A stretch of 64,000 bases of DNA, from contig JAAYAX010000008.1 in NCBI GenBank assembly GCA_012719175.1, positions 62,001 to 126,000 of the forward strand. Direction: 5' to 3'. Source of the stretch: Methanomassiliicoccus sp. (lineage in GTDB: Archaea; Thermoplasmatota; Thermoplasmata; Methanomassiliicoccales; Methanomassiliicoccaceae). Both the position numbers and the translations under genes were made by a program. Shown piece after piece: positions 27,497-38,939 of the stretch. How positions within the stretch are numbered: the stretch's first letter is position 1; every line of letters starts with the position of its first letter. The notes under the pieces were generated by a model. It was given only the letters and a program-made list of their open reading frames with translations, made no database searches and was not told the DNA's origin.

Positions 27497-29353
27497 ATGA
27501 AAGATGATCACTTACCGGAAGTTAGGAACAGCGAAGGAGTGGAAGAGGACCTCTGGACGGAGCATCAGAGAGCATCGGCACTGGAAGAGATAGACATTGA
27601 TGATCTCAAGCAGGTAGCCCCTGCCCTATTTGATGACATATGCTCGAGCTCTGACCTGGAGGTGGTCAGGGAACGGGCGTTCAAAAGCCTCTATGAGCTG
27701 GAGCTAACCTATCATTTGCCATCGTGGACCGCGAGTTCGCTGGAGCGGGTGAACGCGCTGTATTGCATCCAGGTTCTCAGGAACTTCCTATCACCAAGGA
27801 ACGAGAAGATAAGCGGATGCAGTACGCTCAAGGTGCTGCACCAGCTCGTTAATGAAGGCCAGATTGCTGCTGGCAACAGAGCCTTCTTCGTGGACATCTA
27901 CCACATAATCAAAGGAGCGGTAGGCCTTTCCGAGCTGGCGCTGGAGGAGTCTCCGGACCTCTCCCAGACGTCCGGAAGGGAGGCGGCGAAGATCAGATCG
28001 GACTTTCTGGACGTGCTCTCTGAGAGGGCATGTCAGAGGATACAGTCGTACCCTACCGGCCTGGACCCTGAGGTCGTGGAGCGACGGAAGGAGAACCGCG
28101 AGCGCATAATCGAGGCCCTGGGAGGTGATCCTGAGAAGTGGCAGAGCTATAAGTGGCAGCTGATCAACGTCCTCAGGAACACGCAGGACCTCGATGGTCT
28201 CGTGGAGCTAACTGACGACGAGCGTAAGGCCATAGATATGGCTGTCAGCAACCGGATACCCTTCGGCATAACTCCCTACTACCTGTCCCTCATGGACATG
28301 GAGCCTCATCGTTGGTACGATCATGCCATTCGTGCTCAGGTCATCCCCCCATTGAGCTATATCGACGGCATCCTCCGGATGAGGGGGACAGAATCGTTGG
28401 ACTTCATGCGGGAAGGTGACACCTCCCCCATTGATCTGGTTACCCGGCGTTACCCGATGATTGCTATCCTCAAGCCCTACAACAGCTGCGCCCAGATATG
28501 CGTCTATTGCCAGCGCAATTGGGAGATCGATGAGGCCGTCAGCCCCGACGCCCTCGCCCCCATCTCCAAGCTGGATGAGGCCCTGTCATGGTTCCAGGAG
28601 CATCCTTTAGTGTCAGAGATACTCATCACCGGTGGGGACCCTGCGCTGCTTCCCAACAATCGCATCCGCCGTCTCCTCTCCAGGGTGGCGGAGCTGGACC
28701 ATATCAAGCGAGTGAGGCTCGGGACGAGGCTACCCGTGGTTCTCCCCATGCGCTTCGATCAGGAGCTCATAGACATGATGGGCGATTTCAACGATCCCTC
28801 CAAGAGGGAGCTGTGCGTGGTCACCCATTTCGAGCATGCCTACGAGGTCACGCCCGAGGTCATGTGGTGCATCAACAAGATCCGCCGGGCGGGTCTTTCG
28901 GTGTACAACCAGCAGGTCTTCACCATGGAGAACAGCCGCAGGTTCGAGACCGTGGCCCTCCGCCTGTTGCTTAAGCAGATTGGTGTCGACCCATATTATA
29001 CGTTCAACACCAAGGGTAAGGAGGAGACGGACTGGTATCGAGTACCTATCGCCCGCATCCTGCAGGAGAGGAAGGAGGAGGCGAGAATGACCCCGGGGCT
29101 CGCCCGCACCGATGCCGCGGTGTTCAACATACCTGCCCTAGGCAAGAACAACATCGATTCCTGGCAGAACCATGACCTCATCATGATCTCCTCTGCGGGG
29201 GAAAGGATCTACGAGTTCCATCCCTGGGAAAAGAACATCGTGGCAGCACCTACGTACGTCTACCGTGACGTCCCCATACTAAAATACCTCAGGAGATTGC
29301 AGGAGAGGGGAGAGGACCCCATGGAGTACAACAGCATGTGGTACTACTTCTAG
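27497..29353 (+). CDS. KamA-family radical SAM aminomutase, probably glutamate 2,3-aminomutase
   Basis: A 618-residue PLP and radical SAM enzyme. The cluster motif is Cys331-x3-Cys335-x2-Cys338 (CAQICVYC), and ITGGDPALLPN follows. The PLP lysine is probably Lys550 in NIPALGKNN. At the two positions where lysine 2,3-aminomutase has Asp293 and Asp330 to hold the lysine side chain, this protein has Lys506 (YYTFNTKG) and Asn544 (VFNIP). The same Lys/Asn pair is known for glutamate 2,3-aminomutase, which makes the osmolyte beta-glutamate. The N-terminal 230 residues are a helical extension longer than in bacterial KamA. The gene stands alone and ends in TAG. Confidence 0.82.
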   Translation: MKDDHLPEVRNSEGVEEDLWTEHQRASALEEIDIDDLKQVAPALFDDICSSSDLEVVRERAFKSLYELELTYHLPSWTASSLERVNALYCIQVLRNFLSPRNEKISGCSTLKVLHQLVNEGQIAAGNRAFFVDIYHIIKGAVGLSELALEESPDLSQTSGREAAKIRSDFLDVLSERACQRIQSYPTGLDPEVVERRKENRERIIEALGGDPEKWQSYKWQLINVLRNTQDLDGLVELTDDERKAIDMAVSNRIPFGITPYYLSLMDMEPHRWYDHAIRAQVIPPLSYIDGILRMRGTESLDFMREGDTSPIDLVTRRYPMIAILKPYNSCAQICVYCQRNWEIDEAVSPDALAPISKLDEALSWFQEHPLVSEILITGGDPALLPNNRIRRLLSRVAELDHIKRVRLGTRLPVVLPMRFDQELIDMMGDFNDPSKRELCVVTHFEHAYEVTPEVMWCINKIRRAGLSVYNQQVFTMENSRRFETVALRLLLKQIGVDPYYTFNTKGKEETDWYRVPIARILQERKEEARMTPGLARTDAAVFNIPALGKNNIDSWQNHDLIMISSAGERIYEFHPWEKNIVAAPTYVYRDVPILKYLRRLQERGEDPMEYNSMWYYF

Positions 29354-30031: not shown

Positions 30032-30754
30032 TCACTCGGTGATGACCTGGGTGGCTCGGAACTTGCTCTCAGAGAATAGAAGTGAGAAGTAGCCGGTCTT
30101 GTGGTTGGTGCTCCTCAGCTTTATGCATCGTATGCGTCTCTGAATGTCCGTTTCCCCGATCTCTTGGAGCTTCAGGGAGATAACGCCGTCGGCGAGGTAC
30201 CCTTCATCGAAGCGGTTCTCGAACATGTTGTCGGGGGTGGTCTCGGAGATCAGGAACGATGTCACGTTAAGGTTCCTCAGCCATTCGAAGAGGTAGAACA
30301 GCTCGGTACGGCGGCTTCCCTCCATCTGGGCGGCCATCTCCAGGACGTCCAGGGAGTCGACCACGAGGATATCGTAATCGAAGCTCTGCTTGAGGTTGTC
30401 GGCGTACATCTTGAACACCTGCATCCATGTGCCCTTGGCGCTCAATTGTGTGAGCGACTTTCGTATGAGACCAAGGTCTAGGATCTGGATGTAGTCCTGT
30501 GCCTTCTTGTCGTCCATGCCTAGGGAGGTCATCTGTTGCAACAGGTTCTCCCTGGACTGTTCCAGAGTCATGTACACGGACTTGATCCCTTTCTCCAGCG
30601 CATTGTAGTATAGTATGCTGTATGCCACTGAGGACTTCATGGTTCCTGGCGTGCCAGTGAGAAGGACAACCTGGTTCTTGGGTATCCCGCCCTGGAGGTT
30701 CTCATCGAAGTTCTGAATGTAAGTCCTCACGCGCTCGATCTGCAAGGTGTTCAC
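30032..30754 (-). CDS. KaiC/RadA-like single-domain ATPase (third of a triplet)
   Basis: A RecA-superfamily ATPase of 240 residues with Walker A GTPGTMKS (34-41) and Walker B ILVVDSLD (Asp133). In KaiC a pair of adjacent glutamates follows strand 2; here the position reads LEQSREN (Glu65-Gln66). The C-terminal block RRIRCIKLRSTNH is shared with the two neighbours. Related archaeal proteins include the gas-vesicle regulator GvpD, and many are signalling or regulatory ATPases; no substrate can be named. It has its own TATA-like TTAAATATA (about 30780-30790) and a GGAGTG ribosome site. Confidence 0.82.
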   Translation of the reverse strand: MNTLQIERVRTYIQNFDENLQGGIPKNQVVLLTGTPGTMKSSVAYSILYYNALEKGIKSVYMTLEQSRENLLQQMTSLGMDDKKAQDYIQILDLGLIRKSLTQLSAKGTWMQVFKMYADNLKQSFDYDILVVDSLDVLEMAAQMEGSRRTELFYLFEWLRNLNVTSFLISETTPDNMFENRFDEGYLADGVISLKLQEIGETDIQRRIRCIKLRSTNHKTGYFSLLFSESKFRATQVITE

Positions 30755-30806
30755 TCCTTTCCTAATTAATTGGCCTAAGTATATTTAATCCCCGAGTAGC
30801 TTGGTA

Positions 30807-32291
30807 TCAATCCCCGGATTGAGGGGACGCTCTCATCATGGGCAGGCTCAGAATGAACGTGTTGCCTGCGTGCATCATGTTGTGGAATCGGGGGTCTATG
30901 TTGGCCCCCCTCATCTTGATGCATCTAATCCATCTCTGGATGCGTGAATCTCCAACCTCCTTGAGGGCCAGCTCCAACGCGCCATCGGCAACGTACAGCT
31001 CCATGGCGCCATCGTTCTCGAGCTTGGTCATGGGGGTTTCCGATATTACGAAGGTCGTCAAACCCAGGGAGCGAAACCAGTCGAACAGGTCCTGGGTCTC
31101 GATACGGGAGAACTTGACCTCGCTCATGGATATGAACGATTCCAGGGAATCCAGGGCAATAAGCTGGAAGGGGCAGTCCTTCATAACATTCTCTACGTAG
31201 CGCTGGATGATGTTTCTCCAGTCCCCGCTCTGGCCCTCCATACTCCGGCGGAGATCGACAAGGTCCACTATTATCAGGTCGTCCAAGGACTCCTCGCGCG
31301 GCATGCCGAGCCTCTCCATCTGTCTGAGCAAGGAATCGCGGTCCTGTTCCAGCGATAGGAACAGGCTTTTCACCTTGTCGCGTGCGGAGTGGTGTAGGAT
31401 GTGATATGCCAGAGAGGTCTTCATGCTCCCCGCGGGACCGTTGATAAGTACGACGCTTCCAGCGGGGATGCCACCTGAGAGCAGCTTGTCCAGGCCCTCG
31501 ATGCCTGTTCGGACCGTATGGTCCCCCTGCCCCTCAGCCATGCCCGCCCCTATCTGGGAGCTCAGGACCTGGGTGATCTCGCCCAACACTTGTTTGATAT
31601 CGATGGGGGACGGTTCCGATAGTCCCTGTGACTCTCTGATGGTGGCGTTAGCAGCCTTCAGCTCGGCCTCCAGCTGAGCTATGCGGCTGAGCTGGTCTGC
31701 CATGTCCCTCTCGATCGATCGTCGGATGCGGGCCCTCTCCTCCTCCAGGACCTCTCCCAATTCCGCCTGGTGGGCCATCAGCTCCTTGAACCGCTGGACC
31801 CCTTCCTTGTCCGACGTCACGGTCCTCTGGTATTCCTGTGCCGCCATGGCCGTCTCCTGCACTATCAGGGCCATGGCGTCAAGCTCGTCCTCTCTCTCTT
31901 GGATGCGCTTCTTCGAGGCCTCTATGGAAAGGCGCTCCTTCTCCAGCTCCATGGCCACGGCCTCCAGCTCCTTGGACTCCTCTTCCAGGGCATCCATGGC
32001 CTCCCGCAGCTCCTTCTCGCGGTCCTGGAGCTCCTTCTCCCTCCCGTTATAATCGCCCGTTACCAGCGGACGCAGGGAGGAATTGGTGGTGGAGCTCTCC
32101 CTGGGCCTAAGGTCCTTGATGTCCTTGATCCCCGGAGCCGGGCTCTTACCTACGGCAGATGAGGCCTTGGCCTTGGGGTTGCCCTTCAACGGCTCGCCGC
32201 AGCGCCAGCACTGAGAGTCAGTGTGGCTTATACCGGCACCGCACCTAGCGCACTCCAAGATCTTGGGCATCGGAACACCGACCTTACTCAC
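30807..32291 (-). CDS. KaiC-like ATPase with N-terminal zinc ribbon and long coiled coil
   Basis: The 494-residue protein begins with a zinc ribbon (Cys14, Cys17, Cys28, Cys31). A linker follows, then about 135 residues of heptad coiled coil (85-222, rich in Glu, Lys and Arg), and a C-terminal RecA-type domain with Walker A GPAGSMKT (285-292) and Walker B LIALDSLE. The glutamate-pair position is LEQDRDS, again Glu-Gln. The domain order suggests a scaffold linking two single-domain KaiC neighbours. The GTG at 32291 overlaps the upstream stop by eight bases; ATG 32270 is an alternative start. Confidence 0.8.
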   Translation of the reverse strand: MSKVGVPMPKILECARCGAGISHTDSQCWRCGEPLKGNPKAKASSAVGKSPAPGIKDIKDLRPRESSTTNSSLRPLVTGDYNGREKELQDREKELREAMDALEEESKELEAVAMELEKERLSIEASKKRIQEREDELDAMALIVQETAMAAQEYQRTVTSDKEGVQRFKELMAHQAELGEVLEEERARIRRSIERDMADQLSRIAQLEAELKAANATIRESQGLSEPSPIDIKQVLGEITQVLSSQIGAGMAEGQGDHTVRTGIEGLDKLLSGGIPAGSVVLINGPAGSMKTSLAYHILHHSARDKVKSLFLSLEQDRDSLLRQMERLGMPREESLDDLIIVDLVDLRRSMEGQSGDWRNIIQRYVENVMKDCPFQLIALDSLESFISMSEVKFSRIETQDLFDWFRSLGLTTFVISETPMTKLENDGAMELYVADGALELALKEVGDSRIQRWIRCIKMRGANIDPRFHNMMHAGNTFILSLPMMRASPQSGD

Positions 32292-32997
32292 TTATAGCCT
32301 TGGTAACCTGGAACCGGCATCCGGAGAATAAGAGGGAGTAGTAGGAGGGGTCATGGTTGGTCTCCCTCATCTTCACGCAGCGTATCCTTCTCTGCGTTTC
32401 CACCTCCCGCACCACCTGCATCTTCAGCGTGATTATCCCGTCAGCAAGGTACCCTTCGTCGTATGCTCCCTCGAAGAGCCGGTCCGAGGAGACCTCGGAG
32501 ATCATGAAGACGGTGGAGTTGAGGTCCCTCAGCCACTCGAACAGGTAGAACAGGTCGGTACGCCGGTTGCTCATATCTGAAATGGTCTCCAACACTCCTA
32601 GGGAGTCGATGGCGATGACATTGAAGTTCATGTCGTTCTTCAGGGAGCTGAGGTATCCTTTGAAGACCTGCATCCAGGACTCTCCGCCCGCTGCGTGCCT
32701 GAGGTTCTTGCGTATCAGGCCCAGGTCCAGGACGTGCAGGTTCTGCTTGACGTCCTCAGTGCGCATGCCCATCTTTTCCATCTGACGCAACAGGGAATTT
32801 CGGGACTGCTCCAAGGTCACGTAGACGCAGGTGGTCCCGTTCTCCTTGGCCATGTTGTAGAGCATATAGTACACAAGGGAGGATTTCATGGTACCGGGAG
32901 TACCGGCCATGAGAACGATGTGCCCCTGGGGGATGCCCCCCTCCAGTATCCTGTCGAAGCCTTCGATGCTCGTCTTAAGCCTTGGTGTCTGCTCCAA
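32284..32997 (-). CDS. KaiC/RadA-like single-domain ATPase (first of a triplet)
   Basis: A 237-residue RecA-type ATPase with Walker A GTPGTMKS (32-39), Walker B FNVIAIDSLG, the Glu-Gln position LEQSRNS and the shared C-terminal block RRIRCVKMRETNH. It closely resembles the third gene of the triplet throughout, including the final ISE versus ITE, so the two are probably duplicates. The start is a TTG with AGGGGA about seven bases upstream. It is the first gene of the leftward cluster. Confidence 0.8.
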   Translation of the reverse strand: MEQTPRLKTSIEGFDRILEGGIPQGHIVLMAGTPGTMKSSLVYYMLYNMAKENGTTCVYVTLEQSRNSLLRQMEKMGMRTEDVKQNLHVLDLGLIRKNLRHAAGGESWMQVFKGYLSSLKNDMNFNVIAIDSLGVLETISDMSNRRTDLFYLFEWLRDLNSTVFMISEVSSDRLFEGAYDEGYLADGIITLKMQVVREVETQRRIRCVKMRETNHDPSYYSLLFSGCRFQVTKAISE

Positions 32998-33095: not shown

Positions 33096-33797
33096 TTAGA
33101 TATCACCGCGGATGATGACCTTGCGTACGTAAAGGCCAGCGGTCTCGGCCATTCCCTTGAGGGCTGCTCCTGAGTATGGTTTCACGACCTTCAGGCTAGG
33201 GTCCAGGGTGTTGCCCGGACGGAACTGCTGGAGCGCATATCTCTTGGTGCCTCCGATGTATGCGGCCATTGACTCCACGTCATGCGCGGTCAGCAGGATG
33301 GGTACGACGGTGGTGCGGAACTCGTGATCGATCCCTGATATCTCGAGGATCTCGATGGAGCGCTTGATGTTCTCCAGATCTACCTTGACCCCGGCAAGCT
33401 CATCATACTTCTCGTTGAGAGGTGCCTTGAGGTCCATGGCAACATAGTCCACTAGGCCGGCATCGATGAGATCGCGAAGCATCCTAGGATTCGTGCCATT
33501 GGTGTCCAGTTTCACCTTGACCCCCAGTTCCTTGATCTGCTGGAGCAGCTGTGGAAGGTCCTTGTGCATCGTCGGCTCGCCGCCTGTCACCACCACCCCG
33601 TCAAGGAACTCGGAGTGGGAGCGAACGTAATCGGCGATGACCTGAAAAGGGATCTCGTCGAAGGAGCCAGGGTTCAGCACCAAGTCCTGATTATGGCAGA
33701 AGGGGCATAGAAAATTGCACCCTGGTAGATAGATGGACGACACCACATGACCATCCCAGTCCAAAAGGGAGGTCTTGATGAAACCGACGATCCTCAT
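33096..33797 (-). CDS. nrdG: Glycyl-radical enzyme activating protein (NrdG-type radical SAM)
   Basis: The radical SAM motif is CNFLCPFC (CxxxCxxC) near residue 27, preceded by SIYLPGCN. VVVTGGEPTMHKDL is the SAM-binding GGEP motif, and LDTNGTNPRML and YVAMDLKAP complete the activase core. At 233 residues it matches NrdG2-type activators of anaerobic ribonucleotide reductase, common in archaea. No nrdD or other glycyl-radical enzyme gene is in the window, so the partner is inferred. It lies 98 bases after the KaiC triplet's start, on the same strand. Confidence 0.83.
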   Translation of the reverse strand: MRIVGFIKTSLLDWDGHVVSSIYLPGCNFLCPFCHNQDLVLNPGSFDEIPFQVIADYVRSHSEFLDGVVVTGGEPTMHKDLPQLLQQIKELGVKVKLDTNGTNPRMLRDLIDAGLVDYVAMDLKAPLNEKYDELAGVKVDLENIKRSIEILEISGIDHEFRTTVVPILLTAHDVESMAAYIGGTKRYALQQFRPGNTLDPSLKVVKPYSGAALKGMAETAGLYVRKVIIRGDI

Positions 33798-33968: not shown

Positions 33969-34397
33969 GTGACCGATGTGGAGCCCTGGCAGCCGAGAGT
34001 GGTGGCGTTCTGCTGCAACTGGTGCGCCTATGCCGGGGCTGACCTGGCAGGTGTGTCCCGTAGGCAGTACTCTCCCAGCGTGAGGATCGTGAGGGTGATG
34101 TGCTCCAGCCGTATCGATGCCGGGCTAATACTACAGTGCTTCGAGAAAGGTGCCGACGGAGTGATGGTCCTGGGCTGCCACCCCGGAGATTGCCACTACA
34201 TATCCGGCAACCAACGGGAAGAGATGCGGGTACAGGAGGTATGGGAACTGCTCGATCTCCTGGGGATCGGAAGGGAGAGGCTGGTGCTGAAGTGGATCTC
34301 CGCGGCCGAGGGTGAGCTCTTCGGCTCCACCGTGGACAGCTTCGTCACTTTGCTCCAGAGCAAAGGCCCGGTGGGGAGGGTAACGGATGGACCGTGA
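33969..34397 (+). CDS. mvhD: MvhD/HdrA-type [2Fe-2S] electron transfer subunit
   Basis: MvhD carries electrons from the F420-non-reducing hydrogenase to heterodisulfide reductase. The 142-residue protein shows the family cysteines: FCCNWCAYAGAD (15-24), MCSSR (44-46) and GCHPGDCHY near residue 70. The GTG start at 33969 has AGGAGG four bases upstream. Hydrogenase large and small subunits are absent here. It overlaps the hdrD-like gene by 11 bases, so the two proteins likely act together, perhaps as an alternative donor or acceptor module. Confidence 0.88.
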   Translation: MTDVEPWQPRVVAFCCNWCAYAGADLAGVSRRQYSPSVRIVRVMCSSRIDAGLILQCFEKGADGVMVLGCHPGDCHYISGNQREEMRVQEVWELLDLLGIGRERLVLKWISAAEGELFGSTVDSFVTLLQSKGPVGRVTDGP

Positions 34398-35538
34398 CGA
34401 TATCTTCCGCAAGTTCCACGCTGAGGCCTGCATCGGCTGCGGCCGGTGCACATATGCCTGTGTGGCCGCCCAGCGCTACGACGGCTTCTCTCCTCGAACA
34501 GTGGCCGAGCGGGGACTTAGCGGACGGGGCGGTGAAAAGGTCACGCAGCTGTGGTCGTGTACCTCCTGCGGAGCGTGCACCCAGGTCTGCAACGTGGGAG
34601 TGGACTTCCCGCAGCTGATCCGCGGCCTGCGGTCCTTGGCGAGAAGGGACGAGGTTCCCATGGCCGCGCACCATGGAGTGCTCACCGCCGTGGGGAGGCT
34701 GACGTCCTCCCCCACCCTGCGTCCCCGGTCCGCCAATTGGGTCACTCCCGACCTGCAGACGGACCCCCACTCCCATACCATGCTGTTCGTCGGCTGCGTG
34801 CCCTATTTCGATGTCGCTCTGCGCTACATCCGAGATGATCTCCTGGATATACCGCGAGCGGCGGTCCGGCTGCTTAACGCAATGGGTGTGCGACCGAGGC
34901 TGGACCCCTCGGAGCGATGCTGTGGACATGATGCTTACTGGGCCGGTGATGATGCGCTGTTCGAGAGGCTGGCCCGTGAGAACTGGCAGACTGCAAGGGA
35001 TGCCGGGGTGGAAGAGATCGTGACGTTCTGTCCCGAGTGCGCGTCCGTGTGGCGTGACCTGTACCCTCAGGTGATCGGGGACACCGGCATCAGGGTCAGG
35101 ACCATGGCCGAGGTGCTCGCCGAGGCCATCGCCGTAGGAAAGCTAGAGCTCGTGGCCGGGGAGGATGTGGTGACATATCATGACCCCTGCAGGCTCTCCA
35201 AGGGGGCGGGGATCGTGGATCAGCCGCGCAAGGTCCTGCGTTCCCTGAGCGAACTAAGGGAGATGCCCCGCAGCGGCCTCCTGAGCGCCTGCTGCGGCAC
35301 CTCGGGGTGGGTCGATTGCGATCATACCGCGAAGAGGGTCCAGGTGGAGCGACTGCAGGAGGCCGCGGCCACAGGGTCTGAGGTTCTTGTCACCGCTTGC
35401 CCCAAGTGCCTCGTGCACCTCTCCTGCGCCGACAGGCACCATGCCTCAGAGCTTTCCAGCAGGGTGCGCATCGAGGACATTTGCGTACTTACGGCCCGCC
35501 GCCTTCACAGAGAGCCGGTCTCATCCACCAAGGAGTAA
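34387..35538 (+). CDS. HdrD-like Fe-S oxidoreductase (HdrC-HdrB fusion)
   Basis: The N-terminal ferredoxin domain has two cluster motifs (CIGCGRCTYAC and CTSCGACTQVC). Two CCG domains follow: one with VGCVPYFD, RCCGHDAY and CPEC, the other with DPCRLSK, ACCGTSGW and CPKC. CCG cysteines bind the non-cubane clusters that split CoM-S-S-CoB in HdrB/HdrD. Length is 383 residues. Whether the substrate is the heterodisulfide is open, since many HdrD paralogues act on other disulfides or quinones. It is translationally coupled to mvhD. Confidence 0.85.
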   Translation: MDRDDIFRKFHAEACIGCGRCTYACVAAQRYDGFSPRTVAERGLSGRGGEKVTQLWSCTSCGACTQVCNVGVDFPQLIRGLRSLARRDEVPMAAHHGVLTAVGRLTSSPTLRPRSANWVTPDLQTDPHSHTMLFVGCVPYFDVALRYIRDDLLDIPRAAVRLLNAMGVRPRLDPSERCCGHDAYWAGDDALFERLARENWQTARDAGVEEIVTFCPECASVWRDLYPQVIGDTGIRVRTMAEVLAEAIAVGKLELVAGEDVVTYHDPCRLSKGAGIVDQPRKVLRSLSELREMPRSGLLSACCGTSGWVDCDHTAKRVQVERLQEAAATGSEVLVTACPKCLVHLSCADRHHASELSSRVRIEDICVLTARRLHREPVSSTKE

Positions 35539-35653: not shown

Positions 35654-35836
35654 TCACTCCTTCCCCGCCCTCTCCCTCTCCTGGGCCTCGCGCTTGGCCT
35701 TGATGTGGCCTGCCGGCCCTCCGCGCTCTTGCATTGCCCGCTCCGCGCACTCGTCACGCTCGCAGATGAAGGCGCAGAACTGGAAGTTCTTGGCCGTCCG
35801 TCCGCAGAACTGGCACTTCTCCTTCTCAATGTCCAT
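35654..35836 (-). CDS. Small zinc-finger-type protein, 60 aa
   Basis: A 60-residue protein starting MDIEKEKCQFCGRTAKNFQF. Cysteines at 8, 11, 21, 25 and 30 (CxxC ... FCAFICERDEC) suggest a small zinc site, and the C-terminal half is a charged helix rich in Glu, Arg and Lys. A weak TATA-like CATTAAGAG lies about 28 bp upstream, so the message may be leaderless. It lies between the hdrD-like gene and the zinc-ribbon membrane gene. Coding status is likely from the cysteine pattern, but the family is not recognised. Confidence 0.6.
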   Translation of the reverse strand: MDIEKEKCQFCGRTAKNFQFCAFICERDECAERAMQERGGPAGHIKAKREAQERERAGKE

Positions 35837-37460: not shown

Positions 37461-37501
37461 CTCTTCCCCGATCGCCGAGAGCTAGGTGTTAGGTGATAAA
37501 T

Positions 37502-37528
37502 CTCTCTCGTTCAAAGAACTGGAGAGAG
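37502..37528. promoter_or_regulatory. Stem-loop in the divergent region before hdrC
   Basis: CTCTCTC-GTTC-AAA-GAAC-TG-GAGAGAG forms an 11-bp stem with a 2-base bulge and a 3-base loop. It lies between the starts of the exported protein gene (37460) and hdrC (37628). It may be a regulator site or an RNA hairpin; no family is recognised. Confidence 0.35.
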
Positions 37529-37627
37529 TGCCTTTTCATCAAACGTGCTCTATGTCGCCATCAAGGTTCGCTGCCAGCGGGACCAACGGGGCAAAGGAGT
37601 ATATGGCCGGGAACGCTTGCCATTGGC

Positions 37628-38113
37628 GTGAGGAAGACCGTTTACGATAGGGACTTGGCCCTATGGTTGGAGAGCGTGGCCCCACTGGCCATGCTGTGCC
37701 AGCAGTGCGGTGGATGTGCCGCGGTATGTCCCAGCCAGAGGCATGGCGGCATCCGTCCCGCAGAGGTGATGGCCCGGGCGGTCTCCGGTTCCTGCGATAC
37801 GCTTCTCAAGGATTCGCTGTGGCTGTGTGCCCGGTGCATGAGCTGCTCGGAGAGATGCCCCTCCGGAGCAGACCCTGGCGAGGTCATCGCCCACCTCAGG
37901 GAAAGTGTGGTGTCAGGCGGCGAGGTTCCCACCTTCCTTCGGGAAGAGGCGCAGCGCTTTCTGACCACCGGCCTTAGCTTTCCCCGCACAGGCATGACCA
38001 AGAAGATGAGAAAGGAGCTGGGCCTGCCTGACGGAGAGGTCCCTGCGGAAGCGGTGGCGGAGGCGCGGGAAATATGCATGCGGACCGGGTTAGGGAGGGC
38101 TGTTCATGAGTAG
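37628..38113 (+). CDS. hdrC: HdrC-like ferredoxin subunit
   Basis: HdrC is the two-cluster ferredoxin that passes electrons to HdrB. Two CxxCxxCxxxCP motifs are visible: CQQCGGCAAVCP and CARCMSCSERCP. A GTG at 37628 is chosen as the start because a TATA element AGTATATGG is centred about 26 bp upstream, implying a leaderless message. It gives 161 residues, and the frame further upstream has no conserved features. Its last eight bases overlap hdrB. No hdrA is present, so an HdrA elsewhere or another partner is needed. Confidence 0.86.
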   Translation: MRKTVYDRDLALWLESVAPLAMLCQQCGGCAAVCPSQRHGGIRPAEVMARAVSGSCDTLLKDSLWLCARCMSCSERCPSGADPGEVIAHLRESVVSGGEVPTFLREEAQRFLTTGLSFPRTGMTKKMRKELGLPDGEVPAEAVAEAREICMRTGLGRAVHE

Positions 38114-38939
38114 ACCGCTGTACCTCTTCTCGGGCTGCCTCATTCCCACCCGATTGCCTTACTTGGAGGCCTCGTCACGGTTCGTCCTAGACAATATGAG
38201 TGTGGACTACGCGGACCTGCCGGGGGCCACCTGCTGCGTGGAACCCATCGGCCTTCGCACCATGGCCCGGGAGACGTGGCTAGCATCCTCAGCTCGACTG
38301 CTGGCCATTGCTGAGGAGGACGGCAGGGACGTGCTCACGTTGTGCAACGGCTGCTACATGTCGCTCCAGGAGGCGCGGCACGTGCTCGAGGACGACCGCG
38401 TCAGATGGAGGATCAACGATGTGCTGGGCGGTGTCGGGAGGGAGTACCGCGGAGAGGCTCGCGTCCACCATCTCCCGGGTTACCTCCTGGAGCACGAGTA
38501 TGAGGTCCGCAAGCTGATCGCAAGGCCCGTGGACCTTAGACTCGCGCCTCATCCAGGTTGTCATATGTTGAGGCCCTCCGAGGTCTTGAGACTCGACCGA
38601 TCGTTCCGACCAGAGGTCCTGGACAGGATCGCCTCCTGGACCGGGGCCAGCGTCGCTACAGGGCCGGAGTGGCCGGCATGCTGCGGGGGCGGCCTGGCAG
38701 GAATCGACGAGGGGCTGTCGGCGAGCTTGCTGAGGGACGCGGTGAAAGGTCCGCAGGCGTCCAAGGTTGATGCCATCCTCACTCCCTGCCCCTTCTGCTT
38801 CGTGCAGTTCGATATAAGGCAGAAGGATGGAGTGCCCGTCCTGTACCTTGCTGAGCTCATGGCATTGGCCATGGGCGCAACGCCGGAGAGTATCGGGCTG
38901 CGCTACCACCGCACTAAGATCGCTCTCCCGTCCCCGTGA
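38106..38939 (+). CDS. hdrB: HdrB-like heterodisulfide reductase subunit
   Basis: Two CCG domains are present. The first has FSGCL near residue 10, TCCVEPIGL, then LCNGCYM. The second has HPGCHML, ACCGGGL and CPFCF. These cysteines bind the two non-cubane [4Fe-4S] clusters that reduce the CoM-S-S-CoB heterodisulfide. Length is 277 residues. It is coupled to hdrC by an eight-base overlap and its 3' end overlaps convergent nadC by 26 bases. A role in a methanogen-type heterodisulfide reductase is likely, but paralogue functions vary. Confidence 0.88.
   Translation: MSRPLYLFSGCLIPTRLPYLEASSRFVLDNMSVDYADLPGATCCVEPIGLRTMARETWLASSARLLAIAEEDGRDVLTLCNGCYMSLQEARHVLEDDRVRWRINDVLGGVGREYRGEARVHHLPGYLLEHEYEVRKLIARPVDLRLAPHPGCHMLRPSEVLRLDRSFRPEVLDRIASWTGASVATGPEWPACCGGGLAGIDEGLSASLLRDAVKGPQASKVDAILTPCPFCFVQFDIRQKDGVPVLYLAELMALAMGATPESIGLRYHRTKIALPSP

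Follow-up and report, generated by a model that had tools for sequence, protein, structure and literature searches.

Three tandem KaiC-like ATPase genes of Methanomassiliicoccus as the putative core of an archaeal signal-relay complex

The locus described here raises the question of whether three adjacent KaiC-like ATPases, one of them equipped with a zinc ribbon and a coiled coil, act together, and in what kind of complex. KaiC-like ATPases have been proposed as central signalling hubs of archaea (Makarova 2017, as cited in PMC5847659). The window, which is the whole 64,000-nucleotide stretch of DNA that was analysed, corresponds to C8:62001-126000 of a genome of 2.4 Mb in total. The genes, named A, B and C in this order, are all located on the minus strand.

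Gene products and active-site residues

Gene A (32284..32997, minus strand, TTG start) encodes a single-domain KaiC-like ATPase of 237 aa, as indicated by the open reading frame, the PF06745 match (E 3.6e-43) and the ortholog alignment. It overlaps by 8 bases, according to the ORF list, with gene B (30807..32291, minus), whose 494-aa product combines a zinc ribbon, a coiled coil and a KaiC-like ATPase domain. Gene C (30032..30754, minus, GTG start) encodes a second single-domain ATPase of 240 aa; an alternative TTG start at 30745 suits the orthologs better. All three products matched PF06745 with E values from 1e-34 to 4e-43 (119-148 bits, curated cut-off 26.6), in agreement with the three tandem KaiC-like ATPases that a sequence-only reading had recognized. 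That reading had also described A and C as near-identical, which does not hold, as their identity is only 52%. The ATPase domain of B is 35% identical to A.

The four-cysteine zinc ribbon and coiled coil proposed earlier for B were both found. The ribbon (32199..32252, minus) contains C14, C17, C28 and C31, invariant in 16 orthologs, and its identity to the orthologs (48-84%) is similar to that of the B ATPase domain. It is followed by a linker (residues 38-81), unstructured in the AlphaFold2 model and not conserved among orthologs, and by a helical coiled-coil arm (residues 81-221; 31629..32051, minus) modelled as helices 81-158 and 162-221, which differs in length between orthologs and is weakly conserved. 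The KaiC/RecA core (residues 258-486; 30834..31520, minus) gave PDB matches to KaiC CI, PH0186 and SSO2452 with Z scores of 26-28 (27-28 for KaiC CI and PH0186), showing a KaiC fold. The AlphaFold model of C had a pLDDT of 56 and was left out of the analysis.

The canonical Walker A motif GxxxxGK[ST] reads GxxxxMK[ST] in all three proteins, with the Lys and Ser/Thr retained. In A, the motif GTPGTMKS (32881..32904, minus) aligns to G46-T53 of KaiC and has Met where the last Gly would stand; according to the ortholog and subfamily alignments, its counterparts are GPAGSMKT in B (31416..31439, minus) and GTPGTMKS in C (30632..30655, minus). This Gly-to-Met change (G-T-P-G-T-M-K-S) is a second hallmark, absent from the sequence-only reading, which had pointed to a shared LEQ at a place where KaiC-type proteins often have two adjacent glutamates. 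The LEQ of A was found to align on E77-E78 of S. elongatus KaiC CI, of which E77 activates the lytic water and E78 coordinates Mg (PMC2777353). The residues concerned are Glu63-Gln64 in A (32806..32811), Glu315-Gln316 in B (31344..31349) and Glu65-Gln66 in C (30557..30562), all on the minus strand and the latter two placed by the ortholog and subfamily alignments. The shared Glu-to-Gln change is therefore real and lies inside the catalytic site, at KaiC E78. What it replaces is the Mg-coordinating Glu, while the general base E77 is kept; a loss of the catalytic base could thus be ruled out, and catalytic loss is not implied. The adjacent pair of glutamates is not needed for PF06745 membership.

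The RxIRCxK block noted before was also recovered in all three proteins by alignment. It ends at the equivalent of KaiC K224, and the R226 equivalent follows two residues further (Lys209-x-Arg211 in A, 32365..32373, minus; Lys212-x-Arg214 in C, 30113..30121, minus, from the ortholog and subfamily alignments). In KaiC, K224 and R226 act on the ATP of the neighbouring subunit (PMC2777353). Since the block holds this trans-acting Lys, beside its Arg, it supports ring assembly. A, B and C all keep the P-loop Lys and Ser(Thr), the E77-equivalent Glu, the Walker-B Asp, E183 and the trans-acting Lys/Arg.

These residues were tallied in 63 subfamily sequences sampled across the class. The E77 position was Glu in 61/63 and Asp in 2/63, the E78 position was Gln in 61/63, and the Gly51 position of Walker A was Met in 62/63 and Leu in 1/63, with the Walker-B Asp, E183, K224 and R226 invariant (63/63). 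LEQ as a feature specific to the triplet was ruled out by this tally. Among the paralogs of the window genome that were read, LEQ was present in A, B and C only; a further paralog, C11:108211, has the Met together with LEE. Met and Gln thus define a class-wide Thermoplasmata subfamily, not the triplet; this wider family had gone unnoticed in the sequence-only reading.

The triplet proteins resemble cyanobacterial KaiC CI in fold, in the E77 equivalent, E183 and K224/R226 and in the inter-subunit active site, and differ from it by the Met at G51, the Gln at E78 and their single domains. With the two-domain clock model TIGR02655 they scored 35-58 bits against 546, having a single KaiC domain, and no evidence for KaiA/KaiB or a clock was found for the triplet. 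ArlH, the KaiC-like switch protein of the archaellum, is also a single-domain archaeal regulator. A, B and C fall far below its equivalog level (NF052589, 51-55 bits against 215), and there are no archaellum genes beside the triplet.

ArlH is reported to bind ATP and not to hydrolyse it (PMC8978795), and a Met at the Walker-A Gly position is a drastic change. It is therefore conceivable, albeit rather unlikely, that Met and Gln abolish hydrolysis and that A, B and C serve as nucleotide-locked scaffolds like ArlH. Against this, the general-base Glu, the Walker-B Asp and the trans Lys/Arg are conserved subfamily-wide, which would be unexpected if hydrolysis were dispensable everywhere. Such locked scaffolds would still be compatible with a signalling hub, as only the ATP-turnover step is denied.

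Conservation and decay in Methanomassiliicoccales

The triplet was found whole and uninterrupted in the window and in 16 of 20 further extracted loci, which belong to five Methanomassiliicoccales families (f1, f3, f4, f5 and f6). Conserved synteny in relatives, on which the sequence-only reading depended, was thus verified. LEQ and most of the RxIRCxK block persist in these orthologous triplets. Within the order, gene C was detected in 34 of 147 genomes, with no instance among the listed f2 genomes. Between the window and G001, C is the most conserved of the three (94% identity), followed by A (82%) and B (57%); B is the fastest-diverging subunit and yet retains its zinc ribbon.

Decay was observed in family f1. 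The triplet is absent from G008, G010 and G012; G013 is without C and its B is broken, G014 carries an in-frame stop in C, and G009 has lost A and the ATPase domain of B while C is intact. The B homolog of G009 (L054:7932-8960) keeps zinc ribbon and coiled coil. In G008 the site of the missing triplet is still flanked by the NrdG2 gene and a small heat-shock gene. Some of these cases could be assembly errors. Taken as gene content, the triplet seems to decay as a block in this one family; C may not depend on the complete set, since G009 retains it without A. A fourth subfamily paralog in f3 was considered as a hub part and gained no support, its neighbours (named by eye) being threonine-biosynthesis-like, helicase and Lon-like genes.

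The survival of C in G009 after the loss of A and of the B ATPase domain would also fit three diversified paralogs, each forming its own homohexamer in a separate pathway, with the tandem order as a duplication relic. Single-domain relatives do stand alone in many genomes, and a candidate TATA-like element, TTAAATATA, lies upstream of C, which may have its own promoter. The preservation of order and strand across five families, the A/B overlap, the clustering of decay in one family and the recurrence elsewhere of a zinc-ribbon KaiC beside a single-domain KaiC argue against this, and we give it about one chance in four.

No sensor gene is located beside the window's own triplet. Its constant neighbour, which the sequence-only reading had not pointed out, is a NrdG2-type radical-SAM gene (33096..33797, minus; TIGR02495, 209.8 bits, cut-off 131) 98 nt upstream of A. 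That the module works with NrdG2, for instance by regulating anaerobic nucleotide reduction or another radical-SAM process instead of general signalling, is improbable: NrdG2 lies directly upstream on the same strand in all 19 loci whose contig reaches it, but it is also kept in G007, G008, G010 and most f2 genomes, where the triplet is missing, is not beside the f11, f16, f19 and f22 clusters read, and is separated from A by the 98-nt gap.

Other genes were observed in the surroundings. Just upstream of the NrdG2-triplet block, window positions 34387-35538 and 37493-38939 hold HdrB-, HdrC- and TfrB-like heterodisulfide-reductase-like genes and a FlpD-like gene. A Cys-containing 60-aa ORF without Pfam match (35654-35836) shows sequence conservation at 11 loci within the order. 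At 27497-29353 a KamA-family radical-SAM protein of 618 aa with a long N-terminal extension is encoded.

Class-wide relatives and the DUF835 association

At an E value of 1e-40, subfamily relatives were detected in 88 of 201 Thermoplasmata-class genomes, with up to 12 per genome; matches at 1e-60 extend to some further classes within the phylum. One contig scan for relatives returned close relatives only.

A zinc-ribbon-linker-KaiC protein adjoining a single-domain KaiC recurs in f11, f16, f19 and f22. The linker is acidic in f19, TPR-like (by eye) in f16 and f22, and a short coil in f11. Signalling genes were found next to these class-level relatives: in f16 and f19 V4R, a DUF7504 protein that is KaiC-like but inactive, a multi-pass (7TM) DUF835 protein and a small membrane protein; in f11 a receiver-like protein; in f22 both a GTPase-like and a Roadblock protein. 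Subfamily KaiC genes also adjoin Ras-like small GTPases at L103:5733-8833 and L106:7436-8740, with a short coiled-coil protein in between at L103.

The f16/f19/f22 triplet is separate from A-B-C in the tree, although one-clade tests gave p 0.06-0.08, so that orthology is not rejected; addition of f11 weakens the deep nodes. The B-like protein of f11 groups with B (100/97, on long branches) and no longer has the Glu that corresponds to E77. From its fast divergence, the retained zinc ribbon and these f11 homologs without the catalytic Glu, B appears specialised relative to A and C. In the window genome, G000:C11:108211 (L173:4167-6069) consists of the fourth Met-type KaiC paralog, the one with LEE, followed directly by a separate 381-aa protein that has a coiled coil and weakly matches a zinc ribbon; by its architecture, the pair looks like a split-gene counterpart of B.

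DUF835 is classed among the inactivated KaiC domains and occurs fused to receivers in Thermoplasmata (PMC5847659). At least four DUF835 genes were counted in 85/88 subfamily-positive and in 3/113 negative genomes, which are phylogenetically dependent, and the median count over the 201 genomes was 10 where the subfamily is present and 1 where it is absent. As a predictor of subfamily presence, DUF835 reached an AUC of 0.986, compared with 0.843 for response regulators, in the same non-independent genomes. The association was also seen inside family f12 (2-19 genes with the subfamily, 1-2 without). Two exceptions, G066 and G101, are rich in DUF835 genes but gave no subfamily match at 1e-40. In the window genome 10 DUF835 proteins were counted, among them a receiver-DUF835 fusion (L180:5260-6225, G000:C13). 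Other DUF835 matches in this genome fall within open frames some 1,400 aa long, and some of these frames may be reading-frame runs around another gene.

A putative hetero-oligomeric hub

As the subfamily almost always accompanies many DUF835 signalling proteins, A-B-C is most likely the core of an archaeal signal-relay complex. On balance, the comparative data favour A, B and C as subunits of a single ATP-dependent, hetero-oligomeric signalling hub of the type proposed for archaeal KaiC-like proteins. This is suggested by the conserved active-site residues, the best structural matches (KaiC CI and archaeal KaiC-like folds), the conserved gene order, the coupled decay in f1, the specialisation of B, the recurrence of zinc-ribbon KaiC beside single-domain KaiC in f11, f16, f19 and f22, and the signalling neighbours and DUF835 co-occurrence of the relatives. 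Of the signalling or scaffold complex imagined at the outset, signalling is favoured by the class-wide neighbours and DUF835 co-occurrence, while the emphasis on Gln, LEQ and RxIRCxK had to be corrected.

From these data we infer that rings are formed, that A, B and C mix, that B is an adaptor and DUF835 a partner, and that the ATPase is slow or tuned. A and C would make up the core of the ring, where ATP would be bound or slowly hydrolysed at the subunit interfaces, and the active-site Met and Gln would tune Mg/ATP turnover. B would enter through its KaiC domain and, as an adaptor, present the zinc ribbon to partners on its coiled-coil arm. Inputs would come from inactivated-KaiC proteins, such as the receiver-DUF835 protein of the window genome, which could bind or enter the ring.

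A KaiC ring ATPase bearing a coiled coil is known from Rhodobacter sphaeroides (PDB 8DBA), where the coil joins two hexamers and relays their state (PMC10076222). That coil is C-terminal on a two-domain KaiC, whereas the coil of B is N-terminal on one domain, is capped by a zinc ribbon and has two separate putative partner ATPases. The proposed archaeal KaiC hubs with DUF835/MEDS (Makarova 2017, as described in PMC5847659) share KaiC ATPases, DUF835 and sensor neighbours with the present system; relative to that description, the Met/Gln subfamily, the three-gene set with a zinc-ribbon coiled-coil subunit and the quantified DUF835 co-occurrence are distinct. The KaiC-like family and the hub idea are already known. 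No account of the Met/Gln subfamily as a single entity, of the three-gene A-B-C set or of its link with DUF835 turned up in the literature searched, in which Makarova 2017 was represented by its citation in PMC5847659, and the search returned no other paper on a zinc-ribbon KaiC.

The hub proposal for KaiC-like ATPases rests largely on genome comparison. The module offers a concrete test of it: its three subunits are defined, its subfamily can be recognised from sequence, and a putative partner family, DUF835, follows the subfamily across 201 genomes. A more speculative extension, put forward only tentatively, is that Thermoplasmata build mixed KaiC rings from Met/Gln catalytic subunits (A, C), an adaptor (B) and interchangeable DUF835/DUF7504 receptor subunits docking on or in the ring. 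If true, such rings would give archaea a signalling machine comparable in function to one kinase core shared by many receptors, and many unannotated Thermoplasmata proteins would gain a role as their inactive receptor subunits.
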